Source: Mucilaginibacter xinganensis | Lineage (GTDB): Bacteria > Bacteroidota > Bacteroidia > Sphingobacteriales > Sphingobacteriaceae | Reading direction: 5' to 3' | Length of the DNA: 64,000 bases | NCBI GenBank assembly: GCA_026225055.1 | Contig: JAMFSA010000248.1 | Location: 127,332-191,331, forward strand | Shown here: one piece after another, positions 2 to 10,990 of the stretch | How the letters are laid out: each line of letters starts with the position of its first letter | How positions within the stretch are numbered: the first letter of the stretch is position 1 | Notes under the pieces: generated by a model | The model's input: only the letters and a program-made list of their open reading frames with translations | The model's database searches: none | Told to the model about the DNA's origin: nothing | Program-made: the position numbers and the translations under genes

Positions 2-2134
2 ATCTTTCGCTCATTTGTAAATGTGAACCCTCTCGCCTGTGCAAAAACGATTACCAATGCATTTGGTCACTTAAGTAAAGAGACCATTATTGGGATGTAT
101 AAAGGACGAAGAAATCTCGTGTGGGCATTAGAACAATTATGTTATAGAGAGGATACTTTTGATTCTTCAATAAAAATTATGGCCGCTTTCGCAGTTGCTG
201 AAAATGAAAATATTGCAAATAATGCCACTCAGCAATTCCTCCAACTGTTTCATATTTTTCTTCCCGGTACAACTGTGAATCTGCAAAAACGGTGGGATAT
301 TATTGAGTATTGCCTGCAAAAAGATGACGATTATAAACAATTAGCTATACAGGCGGCTATGCGCGCACTGAAAACTGAAAGTTTCCGCAGGATGGGAGGT
401 CCGGAAGATGAACAACAGCCAGGGGATTACCGTCCTGCCCCAAATGAAATAATGGAATATTGGTCTAAGGCCATTTCATTATTGGAAGAGTACCTGGTAT
501 ACCCTCAATATACCACGATGATAACCGAACATCTGATAAACTCGTTATATGGTTTATCAAGCCAGTTTGCAGGAAATCTCATTATTCCAGTTATTGAACG
601 ATTATTAGAGAAAAAAGCAGTTGACTGGCTGACGATTAGGAACAAGGTCAAACAAATACTGCGGTCGGGTAACATTTTTGATCAGGGTACTATTGATGCA
701 CTCAATCGGTTACTTGACCAAATTACTCCCGATGACTTTATAGGTAAACTAAAGATGATTGTTGTTCGTCCATCTACAGAGGACTATTTCGCTAAAGATG
801 AAGAACAGGACGGGAAATTATTATCAAAAAAAATAAATGAATTAGCAGCCGAATTTTTAAAGGCTCCTGAGCAATGGGAAGCTTATCTTGCCCCGGTAGT
901 TACTGGTCAGGTCAGTGAAGGTATCAATTTTGGCAAAGAATTGGGAAGCCTGATTAAGGACCAGGCTGAAATGAGGCGGCTCATTCAACTTTTATTGACG
1001 TTAATTCTTAATACAGACCCTGCCAACCGTAATATTGGCGTACTAGTAGGATTTTTACGTACATTGAAATCTAAAGAGGTTCTTCTTGAGACCTTTGATA
1101 CCGTTTTAAACACACCGAATCTTCAGTTCCTGGCCTTTAATATAGCGTCAGGAACCGAATTGCCTTTCGATTATATTGGTCTGATAATAAACTTGATTGA
1201 AATCGGATCTTTCGATGTCAAAATGCTGTCGGTGTTTAACTTTGGATGGGGGCTTAAACATCTTGGCCACGAAGAAGCCCGTGCAATCTTAGAGCGGATA
1301 AGCAAAATAAATAAGGAGGGCGAGGCACTTGCATTTTCAATCGCATATTCTTGGAGTTATAATGACGATAAAATATGGGATGTAAACAAAGATTTTTTGA
1401 GACATTTACTAATTCAGGATGGTGAATTACTTCTGAATGCATTTAGCAGAACTCAGGATCAGTATTATTGGTCGGAATCAGTTCGGAAATTACTCAGGGA
1501 AAACCACGACGACGAACTTGCGGAACTGATTATTAATTTAATTATCGCCAAAAGTAACGATTGGGATTCCTTTGCAGGACGGTCCGATTTTTATAATATT
1601 TTAGACGTAATTCAAGAACGATATTTTGATCAGCTCTGGTCTGCATTGGAGACCGTGTTTTTAGACTTAGAAGAGTATAGCGCTGCCTTGTTTCATTTTA
1701 AAGACCTTCTTGGTGCCAAGCATGATTACTACGCTAAGACGGAGGGCATACTTTTCAAAGGTGAACCCAAAAAGTTTAATACCATTTTTGAATGGTCAAA
1801 AAGTCACCAAAATAAAAGCCTTTATTGGATAGCAGAAATGCTTCCCGTATTTAATAATGACCAGACTGCAACCAGTAAATGGCATCCGTACGCTTTAAAA
1901 TTTATTAATGAACTTGGAAATATAAAAGAAGTGTTGAGTGGAATAAGCGCTAAGATTGGAACTTATTCTTGGGTTGGATCTGTACTTGACCGTTATGACC
2001 TTGTAAAAGCTATGTTCACGGAACTTATTGACCATCCTATTTTAGAAGTTAGGGAATGGGCAGAAGGACATTTGAAAAACACTGAGTCGATGATTGCGTG
2101 GGAAAAGAACCATGAAAGTGAAATGGGGTTCTAA
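2..2134 (+). CDS. C-terminal part of a large helical-repeat (HEAT-like) protein, possibly STAND/defence-associated; 5' end lies outside the window
   Basis: Frame is open to the window edge (IFRSFVN before the GTG at 23). The product is rich in alpha-helical repeats and has no obvious catalytic motif in the visible part. Confidence 0.6.
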   Translation: MFRSFVNVNPLACAKTITNAFGHLSKETIIGMYKGRRNLVWALEQLCYREDTFDSSIKIMAAFAVAENENIANNATQQFLQLFHIFLPGTTVNLQKRWDIIEYCLQKDDDYKQLAIQAAMRALKTESFRRMGGPEDEQQPGDYRPAPNEIMEYWSKAISLLEEYLVYPQYTTMITEHLINSLYGLSSQFAGNLIIPVIERLLEKKAVDWLTIRNKVKQILRSGNIFDQGTIDALNRLLDQITPDDFIGKLKMIVVRPSTEDYFAKDEEQDGKLLSKKINELAAEFLKAPEQWEAYLAPVVTGQVSEGINFGKELGSLIKDQAEMRRLIQLLLTLILNTDPANRNIGVLVGFLRTLKSKEVLLETFDTVLNTPNLQFLAFNIASGTELPFDYIGLIINLIEIGSFDVKMLSVFNFGWGLKHLGHEEARAILERISKINKEGEALAFSIAYSWSYNDDKIWDVNKDFLRHLLIQDGELLLNAFSRTQDQYYWSESVRKLLRENHDDELAELIINLIIAKSNDWDSFAGRSDFYNILDVIQERYFDQLWSALETVFLDLEEYSAALFHFKDLLGAKHDYYAKTEGILFKGEPKKFNTIFEWSKSHQNKSLYWIAEMLPVFNNDQTATSKWHPYALKFINELGNIKEVLSGISAKIGTYSWVGSVLDRYDLVKAMFTELIDHPILEVREWAEGHLKNTESMIAWEKNHESEMGF

Positions 2135-2196
2135 CCGCCACATGTGGAACCAATAGTTTTAATAGTACTCAAATCTTTCAGTTATATTATTGAATC

Positions 2197-3606
2197 ATGT
2201 CTGTATCCTTAGTTTCAAGCCTTCGGGACCTGCTTTTGAAGATTAAAAATAATCCAAAAGAAAGTTTTGCCTTTAGTAAAATCTATGCGGATGAATTGTT
2301 GCTTCGAAAAATGAAAGATTATGTGGTCCAAATATCGAAAGGGAATAAACATGAGCGGCAAATCATTCAAAACGAAATACTCAATAACGGCATCGAAGAA
2401 ATCGTCAAACCAATTCTGCTTAAGTTAGACTCTATAGGTTATACATATCCTCAAAATAACAGTATAATAGAATCGTCTCTGTTTTATGCGATAAGCTTTA
2501 TTATTAACAATTATCCGATGCATATTTGTTGGCATCCCTTTAGATCCGGTATTGAGTATCCTTCCAAGGAAGTCGAACAGATCGATCATTTGATCAATTT
2601 GACTTCGACTGATTATTTTAGTCCATATACCGAACTTAAATATGCAATCGAGAATTGTCTGTTAACCTGGAACTGCAAGGTTTGGAATGTTACGCCAATA
2701 GGAGATTTGTTTTTGAGTTTATCACCCACAACGGCAACTGTCTTTTTGTTAAAGTTGGAGATTTACCTTAACCAACCAGGAACAGAAAATGCTTTTGACT
2801 TTAATCCTTATCACATGAGTCACAAGTTTTTGCAAAAACTTTATGAAGCGCAAAAAGTATATGTTGACTTAGGAGATGCCCGGTATACGCTTCTTGAAGA
2901 CGATCCTAACATGACTTATTTAAGCAGAATTCAAGACTTTGATTTAGTCTATACAAATGATCTTACATTATCTAGACGAAGTCAGGACGAAATTGAAGGA
3001 ATTCAAATGATATATATAGGAGATGATTTTTTTGAAACGCTCCTTACGGATTTTGGTCGTGAAGTAATTGGGCAAGCCATAAATTCCGAAAATAAGTTCT
3101 TAGGAACGCTGATTGAAAATCTTATTAAAATCGAGATTTCCGGGGCTAAGTATTTTGAATTTCACGATAAAAAGGACAATGACGAATTGTTAAATCTCGC
3201 TGCTAATAATAAGGAAATTTTGAACGGGCAATATTCCGTAATCAAAGACATCGTTCAGCATATAAATGCCGGAAAACCTGATATCCATTTACTAAGGAGC
3301 CTTTATCCCTCCATTGAAAGTATTCTTAAAAAAATATTAACCCAGGAAAAATTAATGGATTCTTCTGAACAAAAATTAACACTCTTTACAATCATAGCAA
3401 GATTTCGTTCAGTTTTAGATAAAAAACCTATTCTTAGAAAAGAAACACTGGACTATTTATCGAGCATGGATCGAAATAATATTCTCCACGGTAGCATTAC
3501 CCCAACTGACCAACTCATTTTGTGGTATCTCAATTTGACACTCAATTTCCTTTCGATGGTCTTAAAAGATTATGAAAACCACCGATTAGCCAAAAAGAAA
3601 TTATAG
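2197..3606 (+). CDS. Uncharacterised 469-aa protein with a C-terminal HEPN-like motif (R-N-N-I-L-H-G)
   Basis: Long ORF, 62 nt after the previous gene and 3 nt before the PLD gene. The helical C-terminus contains LSSMDRNNILHGS, matching the HEPN RNase signature RNxxxH. Confidence 0.75.
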   Translation: MSVSLVSSLRDLLLKIKNNPKESFAFSKIYADELLLRKMKDYVVQISKGNKHERQIIQNEILNNGIEEIVKPILLKLDSIGYTYPQNNSIIESSLFYAISFIINNYPMHICWHPFRSGIEYPSKEVEQIDHLINLTSTDYFSPYTELKYAIENCLLTWNCKVWNVTPIGDLFLSLSPTTATVFLLKLEIYLNQPGTENAFDFNPYHMSHKFLQKLYEAQKVYVDLGDARYTLLEDDPNMTYLSRIQDFDLVYTNDLTLSRRSQDEIEGIQMIYIGDDFFETLLTDFGREVIGQAINSENKFLGTLIENLIKIEISGAKYFEFHDKKDNDELLNLAANNKEILNGQYSVIKDIVQHINAGKPDIHLLRSLYPSIESILKKILTQEKLMDSSEQKLTLFTIIARFRSVLDKKPILRKETLDYLSSMDRNNILHGSITPTDQLILWYLNLTLNFLSMVLKDYENHRLAKKKL

Positions 3607-3609
3607 ATA

Positions 3610-4590
3610 ATGAAATACGAAATATATTTTGATAACCTGCAAGGAGTTATTCACGATGAGGTGGCGAAGGCTAATGAAACAGTGAAAATAGCGATGGCAT
3701 GGCTAAACTTTACACTCTATGGAAAACTTTTTGAAAATTTGCTGGAGAATAAGGTTGCGCTTTCTATTATTCTCGATGATAACTGGGTAAACCAATTATT
3801 TAAAGAAAAAATCGAGATGTTGAAAGGAAGGGGTGCTGATATAAATTTTTTAAAAATGCCGACGAGTATTGACGATTATGGAAAGAAAAAAACCAACATC
3901 ATGCATCATAAATTTGCGATAATCGACGATAGAATAATCTTAAATGGATCATTTAATTGGTCTGAAAATGCCGGTCTGAATTTTGAAAATTTATCAGTCA
4001 TTTCCGGTCATGATTATGCGGTGCAACGATTTAATGACGAATTTGATTTTTTGAAACGTATGGATGAGGGCAAAATCAAGGATTTACAAATTTTGGAAGA
4101 CTGCCCTGCTGATGACTGCGACGGTAAATTGTTTAATCTTTTGCTTTATGACCCTACAAATGTAGACAATTATGAGATGTATGGAAATGTATATGAAGTC
4201 TGTTCAAATTGTCCTTATGATCATTATGAACTATTAGAAAGTGGCGTATCGGATCGTTTTTTTAATAATGTCGAGGAACATAAGGGATCTCAATATGATG
4301 AACTTTTTGATAAGATTAATTCAATGGAAAAGGAAATAAGTGAGGAGGAAAAGAAAAATCTAATCAATGAAATTGACAATTACATTGCCCGTGAATATAT
4401 TTTCTATTTAAATCGCTACGGCTATAGAAAAACTGAAAACCATACGGTGCATGCGATTGGTAAATTAAAGCAGGAAAAAATGTTGAACAAACATGAAGAT
4501 CCGGACTGGATTGCCGAAATTTATTGGAAGGAAAAATTTGCATCAAAATTTATTGATGATGATTACGACTTTGCATTCGATATGCGTTAG
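3610..4590 (+). CDS. Phospholipase D-like (PLD_2) nuclease-family protein
   Basis: HKD motif in MHHKFAIIDDRIILNGSFNWSENA (HxKx4D...GSxN). It also has C-x4-C ... C-x2-C (CPADDC...CSNC). Confidence 0.85.
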   Translation: MKYEIYFDNLQGVIHDEVAKANETVKIAMAWLNFTLYGKLFENLLENKVALSIILDDNWVNQLFKEKIEMLKGRGADINFLKMPTSIDDYGKKKTNIMHHKFAIIDDRIILNGSFNWSENAGLNFENLSVISGHDYAVQRFNDEFDFLKRMDEGKIKDLQILEDCPADDCDGKLFNLLLYDPTNVDNYEMYGNVYEVCSNCPYDHYELLESGVSDRFFNNVEEHKGSQYDELFDKINSMEKEISEEEKKNLINEIDNYIAREYIFYLNRYGYRKTENHTVHAIGKLKQEKMLNKHEDPDWIAEIYWKEKFASKFIDDDYDFAFDMR

Positions 4591-4686: not shown

Positions 4687-7600
4687 TTAATAGATGATTT
4701 TTTCAAGTAACTTATCGGTGTTGGACTTAAACCTACTATCACGGAGTGTAGTATCGAAAAGCGTTAGCAATTTCTCCTGGTCTTTTTGATGTTTCAGGTT
4801 TCGTTCGGGGCGAAGGGAATTGTAAATACCAATAATCAGATTGACCGAATCTTCTTCATAATTATAGTGATGCTGATTGAATTCATCTGCGGGAATTTGG
4901 TTAACGTGATGAACGACAAATTCAAAAAGTTGCAGGCATTCTTCTGGATAGGAATGACAATGAGTAAGTAAGAACTGAAGAAAATATTCACCTCCGGTAA
5001 TCGCGTCGTTATTGACGTATTTTTTCAGAAAGGGATAAAGCTCTTCAAAGGTGATATGCTCGGCATGAAGAAAACCGGTATGAAACGCACTTTCGATCTC
5101 TTTATCTCTGATTATCACCAATTCCTCTAAAAGTGCTATTGATTTTGAATATGAAGTTTCATTCATATGGATGTATTTCAGCGCATTTCCGACAATTGTA
5201 GGCCTGATCTTAGGAAACTTTACCATAAAGGAATAGAGTAAATCCTTCGCGTTTTCATAGTTATTGTAATAGGCACCGAAGGAAATATTGCCAAAACTCT
5301 CGGCCGTCTTTTCATTTAATTCCGAAGCTAAAACCCGTCTAAGGTAAGGCAAAAGTCGTATGAAGTCATAATGGACAAGGTAAGAGAGCGACCATGCAGT
5401 TTCGATCTGCCACGTGTGTTGTTCGTTATTCAATATTTTTATAAACAGACCAAATGCTCGATCCCTGTTTAAGTTCATGAGATAGGCCAGCCGGTATAGT
5501 ATCGCAGCAATGACAGATAAAGTGTCATTGTCAGCAATTCTGATCAAAGCATCAAATACCCTATCCTCCAAATCTTTTTCCTGAATCAAACACAAGGCAT
5601 GAGCGGCAGCGCCTCTTACTGAGCCTATGCCTTTTGCTATAAGTTGTTCCCCGTCAGCGTTAGCCAAATTGTTATTTTCTTCCGGATCAGGATCATTCTC
5701 CGCTTTGTAAAAAACATAATCGATCAGTTTTTCGTCATTGATATCGTTTCTAATCAGGTAGTCGGCGATCCTTAGACTGGATAATATAAAATAGCCGGTC
5801 AGGTTTTGAGTGATCAATAGCTTAAATAAAGACAACACTTTTACAGGATCATGATTGCTTTCCATCAGGCCCGTTAATCCACTTATATGATAGTCGATTT
5901 TTATTGACCAGTCATCAAAAAGCGAATCCAGTATAGGTATAAATTTTTTCGGAAATTTCTTAACGCTATTCTTAAAGGCCTGTGCATGTTCAGAAAGTCC
6001 GCCCTTGAGAAAGTCGTCCCCCCAGGCATTCATCCCGCGCTCTTGATCAAACTTTTGGAAAGACTTCATCCAGGCATTATAATTCATTTTCTCATAGGCA
6101 TCACTCGATAGCGGTGGGTGAACCATGCCGCCCCTTCCATGATCCGTTTGTATGATAGTGATATTCGGATACCTCCTTTGATATTCGTTAAATTTCCGCT
6201 TGAGCTTTGGGAAACTATTAATCAAATTGTTTGGCAGGCATAAAAGGTATCGATATTTGTTTTGACCAAACCGGGTAGACAAAACTTTCTTATCATCCCT
6301 TGTAAATATAAAATAGTCACTTTCTGGAATGAGATTAATCATCTTTAGCAATTCATTTACTTGTTGCTTTTTGAAGATCGGCAGGCTAGCTTTTAAAAGG
6401 CTCCTTAAAGCGTCGGATAATACGTCGAAGCTGTTTAATGCGCCGATAGCGTTTAGATACATAAACGTCTGAAATACAAACTCTCGATGCTGTTTTTCAT
6501 TGCCCGAATAACTATGAATAATTGCGCGCTGTACCGATAGATAGTTGGATCTTAAATGCTGTGTTAGAAAAGACTGATAAAATTCACTATTTGCTTTGGC
6601 GGACTCTTGTAAAAAAACGAGCATTTGTTGAAATAGGAACGGATCTCCGTGAAGATGTTCTAAATCGAAGTTGATATCGTAAATGATATAATCCTGTATC
6701 AACGGCTTATTGGGGTCGTCATATTTGAGTTCGTCGATCCTGTCAGTAAAATATTGAAACAGGTATTGAAAAGTAAGTTCCGGGATAGTTTCGAAAAGCT
6801 TTTCCAGTAGAGTTTCTTTTCGGTGCTGATCATTACTAATATTCGAAGAGGCATCAACCAGCCAGGCTTTTGTTCTTTCAAATACGTAGTTGGGGTTTAC
6901 CGGCAATAGGTGTTCAAAAATCCCGCTATACCTGAATTCACTTAAGTTAATTTCCCCGCAACTTTCCAATACCGCAATTGCGCCGTCAACACCCCAATCG
7001 TTAAGATGATAAAGCAAGTTTAAGACGACCGTTTTGTTTTCCAGTCTTTTTAAATACGGTAATACCAGCTCCGGTGATACAGAGATATTCTTTTGCAACA
7101 TCGCTAAAGCTAAATTATTTAAAGGTTTAGCCATTGCAATTTCGTCGGATTTGGAGGTTAAGAAGGGAAGCTTTTTTAGCAGATGTTTAAGTGGCCTTGT
7201 CAAACCGGAAACCTTTTCAGGAAACAGCATTTCATCAATAAGGCCGCATTGTATAAAATAACTGATCCATCCGCCGGATACCTGCTCACAAAATGGTATA
7301 AAAAAGATTTTATCCTTTTTTATAATCTTATGTAACAATTCTTTTTCTTTTACGGTTGGGATCTCTACGGCGGCTACCGTTGAAAGAACGAGGTGGTGTA
7401 CATGAAAACGTATTGTTCGGTTATTTAACAATCTGCTCACTTGTTTAAGATAACTTTCCGGGTCGACTTCTCTTAAATAATTCAGGATCATTTTAAGCGC
7501 CGCCCTGGCCAAAATAGACTGATTTTGCTTTTTAAGATAACGGAACAGAGAAGACCGCGATTCTACAAATTGCCTTGCAAAGACATAATCATAAAATGAT

Positions 7601-9288
7601 TGGTGAAAAAACTGAAGTCCGGTATTATCGAATGTGATCAACTGTTCGCTCTTCAAGTATTTTAATTCATTGGCATAGGTATCAAACGATTTTTCACTCA
7701 CTGCAATTTGCTGGCGACGATACATTTCAGCAGCAATAAGAAACAAGGCATCTTTAACACGCCCCGTGTCTAATTGGTGAAGTTCCCTGATACTGTCTAT
7801 TTTCGCATTCCATAGTTCGCTGTAAAGCCCCTGGATAGAGTTAACACCCGCAAAATCGCCAACATCCTTATAAATCCGTGAAAATACATTCAGGTTGTTA
7901 GGCACTCTCAGCAGCTCCAACAACTGACTACTCATGCTCTTGTCGGAAAGCCCGATCTTGACCAATTGTTTTTTGACATCATCTACGGCCAGTGTCTTGA
8001 CTTCTATGGTCTTGATATCCTTATAAGGCCGAAGCGCAGGATCATATAACAGATCGAAATACCGAACGGAGATTATGACGCGGACTATCGGATCATTTTT
8101 GTAACCCTCGATTAAGCCGACATAGGTATCCAGAAAACTCCGGTTGGACGATAGTGATTGGGATAAAGCATCAATCTGGTCAATAATGATAACTAGTGTT
8201 TCAAAATGCTGTTTACATTGATCAATAAACTCCCGGATAGGAACTGAAATGTTTATTTTTTCCTGGAGTTCTTTAAAATTACTAACATATAATTTATCCG
8301 CCTTTAAAGCCAGGCAGGGGATGTTATTCTTATTCAGCTGTTCATAAAGATCCTTCATAATAACTGTTTTGCCATAACCCGCACCTCCGGCCAATAAACA
8401 GATATTTTTAAAATAGCCTGCTACTTCGCAGGACGTTGTTACCCAATTGTACAGCAATTTTGTTTCTGCACGTTCCATATGGGAATCAGGGATTTCACTG
8501 ATGGTGTTTTGCTGGCTGCTGATGGTAGCCGAACCTGTCTTTAATTCCTGCTTGAGCTCTTTTTCTGAAAGCGCGTTGCTTTGTCCCGAACTGATTGATG
8601 CTAACCCTTTCTGCAATACGCTATTGTCTGTAACCGATCTTACCGCAAAAAACAAAGAAGCCAGGCCGCCATTGTAGGGTTTGGTCAGTAAGACATCTAA
8701 ATCTTGGGGAAGAATTTGTTTTACGCTGATCCTAGTCAGCACTTCCAGCACTTCTGCCTTTACGTTGCCTAACCCCAATTCTCTTAATGTTGCGCTTTTT
8801 AAATTTTCACCAATCCACTTATCCAGGTGAGCCTCTGTAAGAATATTTCGGTTAAAATCTTTGATAAATGTAGTACAGTTGGACACAAACCCTTTGGAAA
8901 CCGCGATATAATAAGTAAAGTCATTTAGATCAGCTATGAGCGTATGATCCAACAAATAGTACATTGCAAATTTTGTTATCTCCTGGCCAAAGTCTGCTTT
9001 AGCATAGTTCTCTCCATATTTTTTGCATTGAATAAGCCCGAAATTTTTGCCGTCTTTTATTAAACAACAATCGCTTCCATAGTCACGGACACCATTCATT
9101 AAACTGATCTCTGTATACGGCTTAAAAGCATGCTGATCGATTGCACTTTGATAAAGGGAATAAACCAATTCTTCAAACCGCCGGTCATTGGCCAATTGGT
9201 TATAAGGAAATGGCATCATTTCATACGGAACTGGTTTCAGGTCTCCGTGATCGATAATTTGAGGGTTCTCGTAAGTGAATAGTTGCAT
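4687..9288 (-). CDS. STAND-type NTPase with N-terminal PD-(D/E)xK (Mrr-like) nuclease domain and C-terminal HEAT-like repeats; Avs-like architecture
   Basis: N-terminus RDYGSDCCLIKDGKNFGLIQCKKY (restriction-endonuclease-like core). Walker A LLAGGAGYGKT, Walker B LVIIIDQIDAL, then a ~1000-aa helical-repeat region. Confidence 0.8.
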   Translation of the reverse strand: MQLFTYENPQIIDHGDLKPVPYEMMPFPYNQLANDRRFEELVYSLYQSAIDQHAFKPYTEISLMNGVRDYGSDCCLIKDGKNFGLIQCKKYGENYAKADFGQEITKFAMYYLLDHTLIADLNDFTYYIAVSKGFVSNCTTFIKDFNRNILTEAHLDKWIGENLKSATLRELGLGNVKAEVLEVLTRISVKQILPQDLDVLLTKPYNGGLASLFFAVRSVTDNSVLQKGLASISSGQSNALSEKELKQELKTGSATISSQQNTISEIPDSHMERAETKLLYNWVTTSCEVAGYFKNICLLAGGAGYGKTVIMKDLYEQLNKNNIPCLALKADKLYVSNFKELQEKINISVPIREFIDQCKQHFETLVIIIDQIDALSQSLSSNRSFLDTYVGLIEGYKNDPIVRVIISVRYFDLLYDPALRPYKDIKTIEVKTLAVDDVKKQLVKIGLSDKSMSSQLLELLRVPNNLNVFSRIYKDVGDFAGVNSIQGLYSELWNAKIDSIRELHQLDTGRVKDALFLIAAEMYRRQQIAVSEKSFDTYANELKYLKSEQLITFDNTGLQFFHQSFYDYVFARQFVESRSSLFRYLKKQNQSILARAALKMILNYLREVDPESYLKQVSRLLNNRTIRFHVHHLVLSTVAAVEIPTVKEKELLHKIIKKDKIFFIPFCEQVSGGWISYFIQCGLIDEMLFPEKVSGLTRPLKHLLKKLPFLTSKSDEIAMAKPLNNLALAMLQKNISVSPELVLPYLKRLENKTVVLNLLYHLNDWGVDGAIAVLESCGEINLSEFRYSGIFEHLLPVNPNYVFERTKAWLVDASSNISNDQHRKETLLEKLFETIPELTFQYLFQYFTDRIDELKYDDPNKPLIQDYIIYDINFDLEHLHGDPFLFQQMLVFLQESAKANSEFYQSFLTQHLRSNYLSVQRAIIHSYSGNEKQHREFVFQTFMYLNAIGALNSFDVLSDALRSLLKASLPIFKKQQVNELLKMINLIPESDYFIFTRDDKKVLSTRFGQNKYRYLLCLPNNLINSFPKLKRKFNEYQRRYPNITIIQTDHGRGGMVHPPLSSDAYEKMNYNAWMKSFQKFDQERGMNAWGDDFLKGGLSEHAQAFKNSVKKFPKKFIPILDSLFDDWSIKIDYHISGLTGLMESNHDPVKVLSLFKLLITQNLTGYFILSSLRIADYLIRNDINDEKLIDYVFYKAENDPDPEENNNLANADGEQLIAKGIGSVRGAAAHALCLIQEKDLEDRVFDALIRIADNDTLSVIAAILYRLAYLMNLNRDRAFGLFIKILNNEQHTWQIETAWSLSYLVHYDFIRLLPYLRRVLASELNEKTAESFGNISFGAYYNNYENAKDLLYSFMVKFPKIRPTIVGNALKYIHMNETSYSKSIALLEELVIIRDKEIESAFHTGFLHAEHITFEELYPFLKKYVNNDAITGGEYFLQFLLTHCHSYPEECLQLFEFVVHHVNQIPADEFNQHHYNYEEDSVNLIIGIYNSLRPERNLKHQKDQEKLLTLFDTTLRDSRFKSNTDKLLEKIIY

Positions 9289-9397: not shown

Positions 9398-10990
9398 ATG
9401 GAGTCATATTCAAATTATCAAGCTTTTTTTTTACGGCTTAAGGCACAAATTCAGACGGCACGGGTAAAAGCTGTTTTGTCCGCCAATAAACAGATGCTGG
9501 AACTTTATTGGTGGATAGGCAATGCCATCAGGACCCAGCAAGCGGCAGAGGGGTGGGGTACAAAAGTTATTCAGAAACTATCCTTTGATCTAAAAGCAGA
9601 ATTTCCTGACTTGAAAGGTATTTCAGAGCGGAATTTGAAATATATGCGCGCTTTTGCTAGTGCTTACCCATCTTTTGTGCAAGATACACTTGCACAAAGT
9701 GTGGATAGTTCAGCGGTTGTAAGCAACACTGAATTTGTGCAAGTACCGCTTGCACAAATCACCTGGTATCACCACATTACCTTACTCGATAAGGTCAAGG
9801 AAGAAAAGCATCGGTACTTCTATATTGAAAAGATCATTGAAAATGGGTGGAGCAGGGATGTAATGGTAAACCAGATCGATTCCGGCCTACATTTAAGGCA
9901 GGGCAAACTCCAGCATAATTTTCCGAGTACTTTGCCTGCCTCCAAAAGTGATCTGGCACGGGAATTATTTAAAGACCCGTATAGGTTTGATTTTTTTCAA
10001 CTTACGCAGGAAGCCAGTGAGCGTGATCTGGAAGATGCCCTGGTTAGCCATATCTACAAATTCTTACTAGAAATGGGCAAAGGCTTTGCTTTTATGGGCA
10101 AGCAAGTACATTTGGAAAAAGGAGGGCAAGATTATTATTTAGACCTGCTTTTTTACCATACTAAATTGCATTGTCACGTTATCTTGGAATTGAAAATAGG
10201 TGACTTTAAACCTGAATATGCAGGAAAAATGAATTTCTATCTTTCCGCCTTCGATGAAGACTATCGCACGGCGGAAGATGGCCCCACTATAGGCATCATC
10301 CTATGCAAAAACAAAAATAAGGTTACCGCCGAATACGCGTTAAGGGATGTAAACAAACCAATGGGCATTGCTGAATATCAATTTACAGCCGCTATTCCGG
10401 CAGACTTGAAAGGCGAGTTACCAAGCATCGAAGACTTGGAAGTAGAACTGGAAAAGGAGTTGAAAATACCCAAAACTCTTATAGATGAAAAACTGGACAA
10501 ACTTAATAATCTTGTAAACCATATCGGGCAACAAGAGATCAAAGAAAAGCTAAGCGTTGACAGAACAAGGGTGATCTTTAATGAGGTGATCTTCGAATTA
10601 AAAAACAAAGTCGAGATCTTATTGGACCCCATTTTTAAAATGTTCAGTGAAAATATTATATCCTATTCTATAAATGGACGTTCTTCTTTTCTAGGCTCCA
10701 CAGATTTGGAAGCAGATTTACTTACCGGACATAATATCCATGAATTGGGTCTAAACATAGAATTAAATGGCTTTAAAAAAGCAGGCTTAAAATCTTTTAA
10801 TTCTTACAGCGACCTCAAATTCTTTTTAGAAAAATATAAGTATCAGGTTGGGCCAAGTCGCCAGACAATTTGGCAAGAACATCTTTATGACAAAGAATGG
10901 ACGACTGAAAACCTGCAAATTTTAGCCCAAAAATGGACCGAATCGATCATTGAAGAAGTCCACGGTTCAATAGAAAGAATAAGTATATGA
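9398..10990 (+). CDS. DUF1016/YhcG-family PD-(D/E)xK nuclease domain protein with ~170-aa C-terminal extension
   Basis: N-terminal YWWIGNAIRTQQAAEGWGTKVIQKLSFDLKAEFP...GISERNLKYMRAF and YLDLLFYHTKLHCHVILELKIGDFKPEYAGKMNFYLSA are hallmark YhcG sequences. Confidence 0.9.
   Translation: MESYSNYQAFFLRLKAQIQTARVKAVLSANKQMLELYWWIGNAIRTQQAAEGWGTKVIQKLSFDLKAEFPDLKGISERNLKYMRAFASAYPSFVQDTLAQSVDSSAVVSNTEFVQVPLAQITWYHHITLLDKVKEEKHRYFYIEKIIENGWSRDVMVNQIDSGLHLRQGKLQHNFPSTLPASKSDLARELFKDPYRFDFFQLTQEASERDLEDALVSHIYKFLLEMGKGFAFMGKQVHLEKGGQDYYLDLLFYHTKLHCHVILELKIGDFKPEYAGKMNFYLSAFDEDYRTAEDGPTIGIILCKNKNKVTAEYALRDVNKPMGIAEYQFTAAIPADLKGELPSIEDLEVELEKELKIPKTLIDEKLDKLNNLVNHIGQQEIKEKLSVDRTRVIFNEVIFELKNKVEILLDPIFKMFSENIISYSINGRSSFLGSTDLEADLLTGHNIHELGLNIELNGFKKAGLKSFNSYSDLKFFLEKYKYQVGPSRQTIWQEHLYDKEWTTENLQILAQKWTESIIEEVHGSIERISI

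Follow-up and report, generated by a model that had tools for sequence, protein, structure and literature searches.

The first 4,590 positions of a 64,000-nucleotide (nt) stretch of Mucilaginibacter xinganensis DNA (G000:C136:127332-191331, the whole of which is called the window) hold three co-directional genes, here genes 1, 2 and 3, with 62 nt between the first two and 3 nt between the second and third. An initial annotation had presented the three as a candidate undescribed defence operon in which one sensor is coupled to two nucleolytic effectors. The open reading frames (ORFs), their spacing and the defence context were all confirmed, but the coupling is not supported, since gene 1 appears to carry a TIR effector of its own and the relatives of genes 1 and 3 stand apart. 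We therefore consider it fairly probable that the stretch comprises two units, namely a TIR-STAND receptor (gene 1) and what is probably a separate pair in the same defence island (genes 2 and 3). The relevant features are listed below.

2-2134, + strand: C-terminal part of gene 1; ORF open at the left window edge, TAA stop at 2132-2134
Gene 1 residues ~1-175, + strand, outside the window: TIR-like domain, from alignment with relatives and E101
Gene 1, + strand, outside the window: predicted STAND NTPase, with Walker A GLSGLGKT at residue 231 and Walker-B-like IIILDN at residue 288
2197-3606, + strand: gene 2, 469 amino acids, an orphan, possibly HEPN at its C-terminus; ATG at 2197, TAG at 3604-3606
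3472-3489, + strand: RNNILH, gene 2 residues 426-431, candidate HEPN Rx4H catalytic motif from a motif scan (RNNILHG spans 426-432)
3610-4590, + strand: gene 3, 326 amino acids, single-HKD PLD-family protein; ATG at 3610
3904-3927, + strand: HKD motif HHKFAIID (HxKx4D), gene 3 residues 99-106, from a motif scan and family alignment
4102-4212, + strand: C-x4-C ... C-x2-C cluster, gene 3 residues 165-201, from a four-sequence alignment

Gene 1 had been described as a giant helical-repeat protein cut by the window edge. The truncation is real, but a protein made of repeats only is not what the upstream DNA reveals, as this adds the TIR-like domain and the STAND NTPase. When extended, the ORF has 1,296 codons, and translation likely starts at the ATG of MGFKIFYAWQSD, the motif at which relatives also begin, to give a protein of 1,270 amino acids. 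The full gene (G000:C136:125653-129465, or L003:5654-9466) thus begins 1,679 bases before the first position of the window, which contains residues 560-1270 (711 residues). Full-length gene 1 matches the PADLOC profile PD-Lambda-4_A with an E-value of 3.3e-47 across residues 209-1264, and even the window fragment alone does so at E 1e-22. Together with the Walker A motif, this homology bears out the earlier suggestion of a STAND-type sensor; in Pfam, the STAND part gives only weak AAA_14 and nSTAND matches. The C-terminal region, for which Pfam gives no repeat match, is homologous to the same part of PD-Lambda-4_A and is presumed to be a helical-repeat sensor.

The N-terminal 208 residues of gene 1 lie outside the PD-Lambda-4_A match. 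Residues 1-175 can be aligned to the FYxWQSD protein family, and 11 of the 13 relatives of this N-terminus match PF10137 (CAP12-PCTIR_TIR, the CAP12/Pycsar TIR), with a best E-value of 9.7e-6. All 13 share E101, within an NPNVxxELG motif, which we take by alignment with the family to be the catalytic glutamate. Judged by its sequence, gene 1 is an NLR-like protein with a predicted TIR domain, STAND NTPase and repeats, and within the PD-Lambda-4_A STAND family it represents a variant bearing TIR. That it is instead the A subunit of a regular two-gene PD-Lambda-4 system (Vassallo et al. 2022, PMC9519451; PADLOC models) is very improbable. The A subunit is homologous to residues 209-1264; however, the unmatched, TIR-like 208 residues replace the usual N-terminus of the A subunit, which is nuclease-like in relatives, and a search of the genome for the B subunit (PD-Lambda-4_B, PDLC03992) returned no match even at E <= 1. 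By the two-gene definition, the lack of a B subunit match means that gene 1 is not PD-Lambda-4.

Relatives of the gene 1 core were compared in seven loci from a phylum sample (L059-L065), in one locus with a full-length TIR-STAND protein (L180) and on three plasmids (L066, L067 and L069). Four of the five core relatives whose N-termini were compared (L060-L063) have, in place of TIR, a nuclease-like N-terminus with D...(E/Q)xK-like motifs, which may represent a PD-(D/E)xK nuclease, and L059, L064 and L065 have the same kind of N-terminal sequence. The fifth, the protein of L180 from another Bacteroidota genome (G678), has a TIR N-terminus and is 24-26% identical to gene 1 across the whole protein. 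Two Rhizobium plasmids have a PD-Lambda-4_A-like gene and, 79 and 96 nt downstream of it, respectively, a distinct TIR gene (L066:3916-9880 and L069:4260-9449), and the products of these TIR genes are 38% and 32% identical to the gene 1 N-terminus. The parts of the fused TIR-STAND protein are thus also encoded by neighbouring genes. As judged from this sequence comparison, the PD-Lambda-4_A-type core occurs with differing effectors.

The relatives of gene 1 are either solitary or placed among other defence genes, including type I and III restriction genes, AbiD, PD-T7-3-like and PD-Lambda-2_B-like genes, and others. For instance, the L180 gene is part of a type I restriction operon, flanked by HsdM/HsdS-like genes and an HsdR-like gene (named from sequence by eye). 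In L061 (5150-10508), a PD-T7-3-like gene lies 43 nt upstream of the STAND gene, and in L066 a HEPN_Toprim_N gene precedes the PD-Lambda-4_A-like gene, a possible three-gene arrangement. No relatives of gene 2 or gene 3 were found beside gene 1 relatives by BLAST in L059-L065 or L180, nor were any found by annotation, partly PADLOC, on the three plasmids.

The earlier assignment of gene 3 to the PLD-family HKD proteins was borne out by a PLDc_2 domain match (E 2.5e-15) and by the active-site motif HHKFAIID, which is accompanied by GSFNWSENA. Relatives were collected from a scan of GTDB genome contigs, which yielded 80 loci (in 14, the match covers almost the full query), and further copies came from a Campylobacterota plasmid and from G459. 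Three cysteines of the Cys4 cluster are invariant in the four-sequence alignment, and the fourth is absent only from the plasmid relative. This cluster and a HAIG motif, both in the C-terminal region, are marks of gene 3's own family, and it is possible that the Cys4 tail binds zinc. The nearest relatives of solved structure are the mitochondrial cardiolipin hydrolase (Zucchini/MitoPLD; PDB 9lkx), which matches residues 92-147 (E 8e-7), and NucT (PDB 6ehi), which matches residues 18-124 (E 6e-4), although gene 3 differs from both in its additional Cys4/HAIG region. From these likenesses, gene 3 most likely encodes a dimeric nuclease; phospholipase activity is possible. Assignment to DrmC of DISARM was rejected, as the gene 3 score of 14.4 bits is below the cut-off of 133 (NF038319), and a scan of the neighbouring genes showed no DISARM partner.

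In the 80 loci there is no match to gene 1, to gene 2 or to the STAND and YhcG-type genes that neighbour the trio in M. xinganensis. The immediate neighbours of gene 3 relatives vary and include a HamB-like helicase (L075), an S1-domain protein (L080) and ordinary genes; the gene 3 family has no fixed partner. In Clostridium guangxiense (L085:1715-7777), a CBASS-type locus with a cyclase and an E1-E2 protein is located approximately 2 kb upstream of the gene 3 relative, and in G459 (L055) the relative is near a PRTRC-like cassette, as judged by eye.

Gene 2 is an orphan. Searches of overlapping genome samples at family (150 genomes), phylum (396) and class (318) level found no relatives, nor did those of plasmids and phages, and no profile matched in Pfam, NCBIfam, PADLOC or PDB. 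Scans of assembled genome contigs and viral contigs also found none, although these depend on exact matches of 8-residue words, so that distant relatives would escape them. Those weak class-level matches that were inspected by eye were dismissed as chance, being mostly histidine-kinase sequence, with one ABC-transporter-like and one carbamoyltransferase-like; the HEPN_Toprim_N neighbour in Rhizobium (L066) was likewise discarded as a relative, as BLAST shows no relation. It is very unlikely that the ORF arose by chance: it has 469 codons, a GC (guanine plus cytosine) content of approximately 34% and a codon-position composition resembling that of its neighbours.

The initial annotation had called gene 2 HEPN-like on account of an RNxxxH motif. 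The motif is present (RNNILHG, residues 426-432), but HEPN identity was not confirmed by any profile match or usable model. Of shuffled gene 2 sequences, 2.4% contain RN...H, and 0.4% contain it within the last 60 residues; among the window's 31 ORFs of 200 amino acids or more, gene 2 alone has it. AlphaFold2 models reached a predicted local distance difference test score (pLDDT) of 34.6 for the whole protein and 45.9 for its C-terminal 171 residues, which is too low to use; in these low-confidence models a helix follows RNNILHG. A Foldseek search with the C-terminal model returned a best E-value of 1.2 and nothing at E <= 0.001, a result that weighs neither for nor against HEPN. RNNILHG is the single pointer to what gene 2 does, suggestive but not decisive, and the chances that gene 2 encodes a HEPN protein are about even.

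Genes 2 and 3 are probably translationally coupled, a view that their 3-nt gap supports. Within the two-unit reading, and compatible with it as a refinement, they could form a defence or toxin-antitoxin-like module that is independent of gene 1, in which the PLD nuclease has a control protein or second nuclease as its partner. The short gap and the HEPN-like motif in gene 2 argue for such a module, as does the fact that members of the gene 3 family occur on a plasmid and in accessory regions, close to CBASS genes, a HamB-like helicase and a PRTRC-like cassette. However, gene 2 is known from one locus, and gene 3 relatives stand alone or with unrelated genes, so a constant partner is unnecessary. 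We rate this module at somewhat below an even chance.

Several observations weigh against separating gene 1 from genes 2 and 3, or against its TIR assignment. A search for a terminator between genes 1 and 2 found none, and the 62-nt gap permits a shared transcript; a promoter scan gave a site count equal to the shuffled expectation and is uninformative on this point. The TIR region of gene 1 itself falls below the Pfam and NCBIfam thresholds, and the TIR alignment, searched as a profile against PDB, retrieved no TIR structure, so the assignment depends on a chain of relatives. Additionally, since gene 2 has no relatives, a trio restricted to one lineage would be compatible with the data.

A genuine three-gene system, in which the TIR-STAND receptor detects phage and then switches on or licenses two further effectors, a HEPN RNase (gene 2) and a PLD nuclease (gene 3), would account for the shared strand, the short gaps and the missing terminator, and HEPN-type genes do lie directly upstream of PD-Lambda-4_A-like STAND genes in L061 (PD-T7-3-like) and L066 (HEPN_Toprim_N, unrelated to gene 2). 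Yet no examined gene 1 relative is near gene 2 or 3, no gene 3 relative is near gene 1 or 2, and gene 1 has its own effector domain; hence we regard this system as unlikely. The co-occurrence check proposed in the initial annotation went against the trio for genes 1 and 3 in the loci examined. A bolder version, rated as quite improbable, would be a lineage-specific composite in which the receptor recruits a HEPN-like family of an undescribed kind and the Cys4-tailed PLD nuclease, so that one sensor would command three effectors, directed at NAD+, RNA and DNA. The two-unit reading thus remains the one we favour.

Both of the neighbours named in the initial annotation, a STAND protein and a YhcG-type nuclease, were also confirmed and are separate from the three genes:

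4687-9288, - strand: STAND protein with AAA domain, from domain and PADLOC profile matches
9398-10990, + strand: YhcG/DUF1016 nuclease, PADLOC PDC-S02

The N-terminus of this STAND protein weakly matches LmuA and its core resembles PDC-M54A. Within the YhcG-type gene, a near-palindrome of 25 nt occurs in two copies, TTTGTGCAAG...CTTGCACAAA (window 9674-9758). Outside the window and directly upstream of gene 1 is a PRTRC-like cassette (L003:2184-4826) comprising Prok-E2_D (E2 family D) and ThiF proteins; its position beside defence genes suggests a mobile element. A 150-amino-acid macro-domain protein (L003:4823-5275) matches the macro part of DarG (E 1.5e-63), and the gene 1 start is 378 nt further on. 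GC content is approximately 33-40% in the three-gene stretch versus 43-46% in upstream genes. For genes 1 and 2, no relatives were found in same-genus genomes within the samples, and no tRNA marking an element end was found in the window. Overall, the locus looks like a defence island on an integrative or plasmid-derived element, and by family and setting genes 1-3 would have a role in defence against phages.

In AVAST (Avs) receptors, an effector, a STAND NTPase and a repeat sensor follow one another in order, and phage products are presumed to be sensed. Gene 1 has the same predicted domain order, but no PADLOC Avs profile matches it. A closer parallel in design is the TIR-NLR of P4-like satellites, a published anti-phage system in which one protein has TIR, a STAND NTPase and C-terminal repeats, and in which SIR2 or nuclease (Mrr_cat, BpuSI_N) domains can take the place of TIR (Rousset et al. 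2022, PMC9122126). Gene 1 is predicted to share this domain design, a likeness of description and not of aligned sequence, and differs in that its core belongs to the PD-Lambda-4_A family and its TIR to the CAP12/Pycsar type. It most likely works as the TIR-NLR does. From the TIR-NLR and AVAST families we infer sensing, oligomerisation and NADase activity; the sequences themselves show the domain order, TIR via relatives, Walker A and the effector swap on the same core. The repeats would bind a phage product, upon which the STAND domain would bind ATP and then oligomerise; the clustered TIR domains would use E101 to degrade NAD+ or to produce a nucleotide signal, and this activity would halt the infected cell. 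Gene 3 would act as a dimeric nuclease, and its orphan partner, gene 2, may regulate it or may be a HEPN RNase.

As an orphan beside a nuclease in a defence island, gene 2 is a reasonable but low-odds candidate for a new effector or regulator. For PD-Lambda-4, no described mechanism was found in the literature searched. Its A-type STAND/sensor core is found with varied effectors, namely a fused TIR, a separate downstream TIR gene and a nuclease-like N-terminus, which offers the hypothesis that PD-Lambda-4 may be a STAND receptor with an exchangeable effector.

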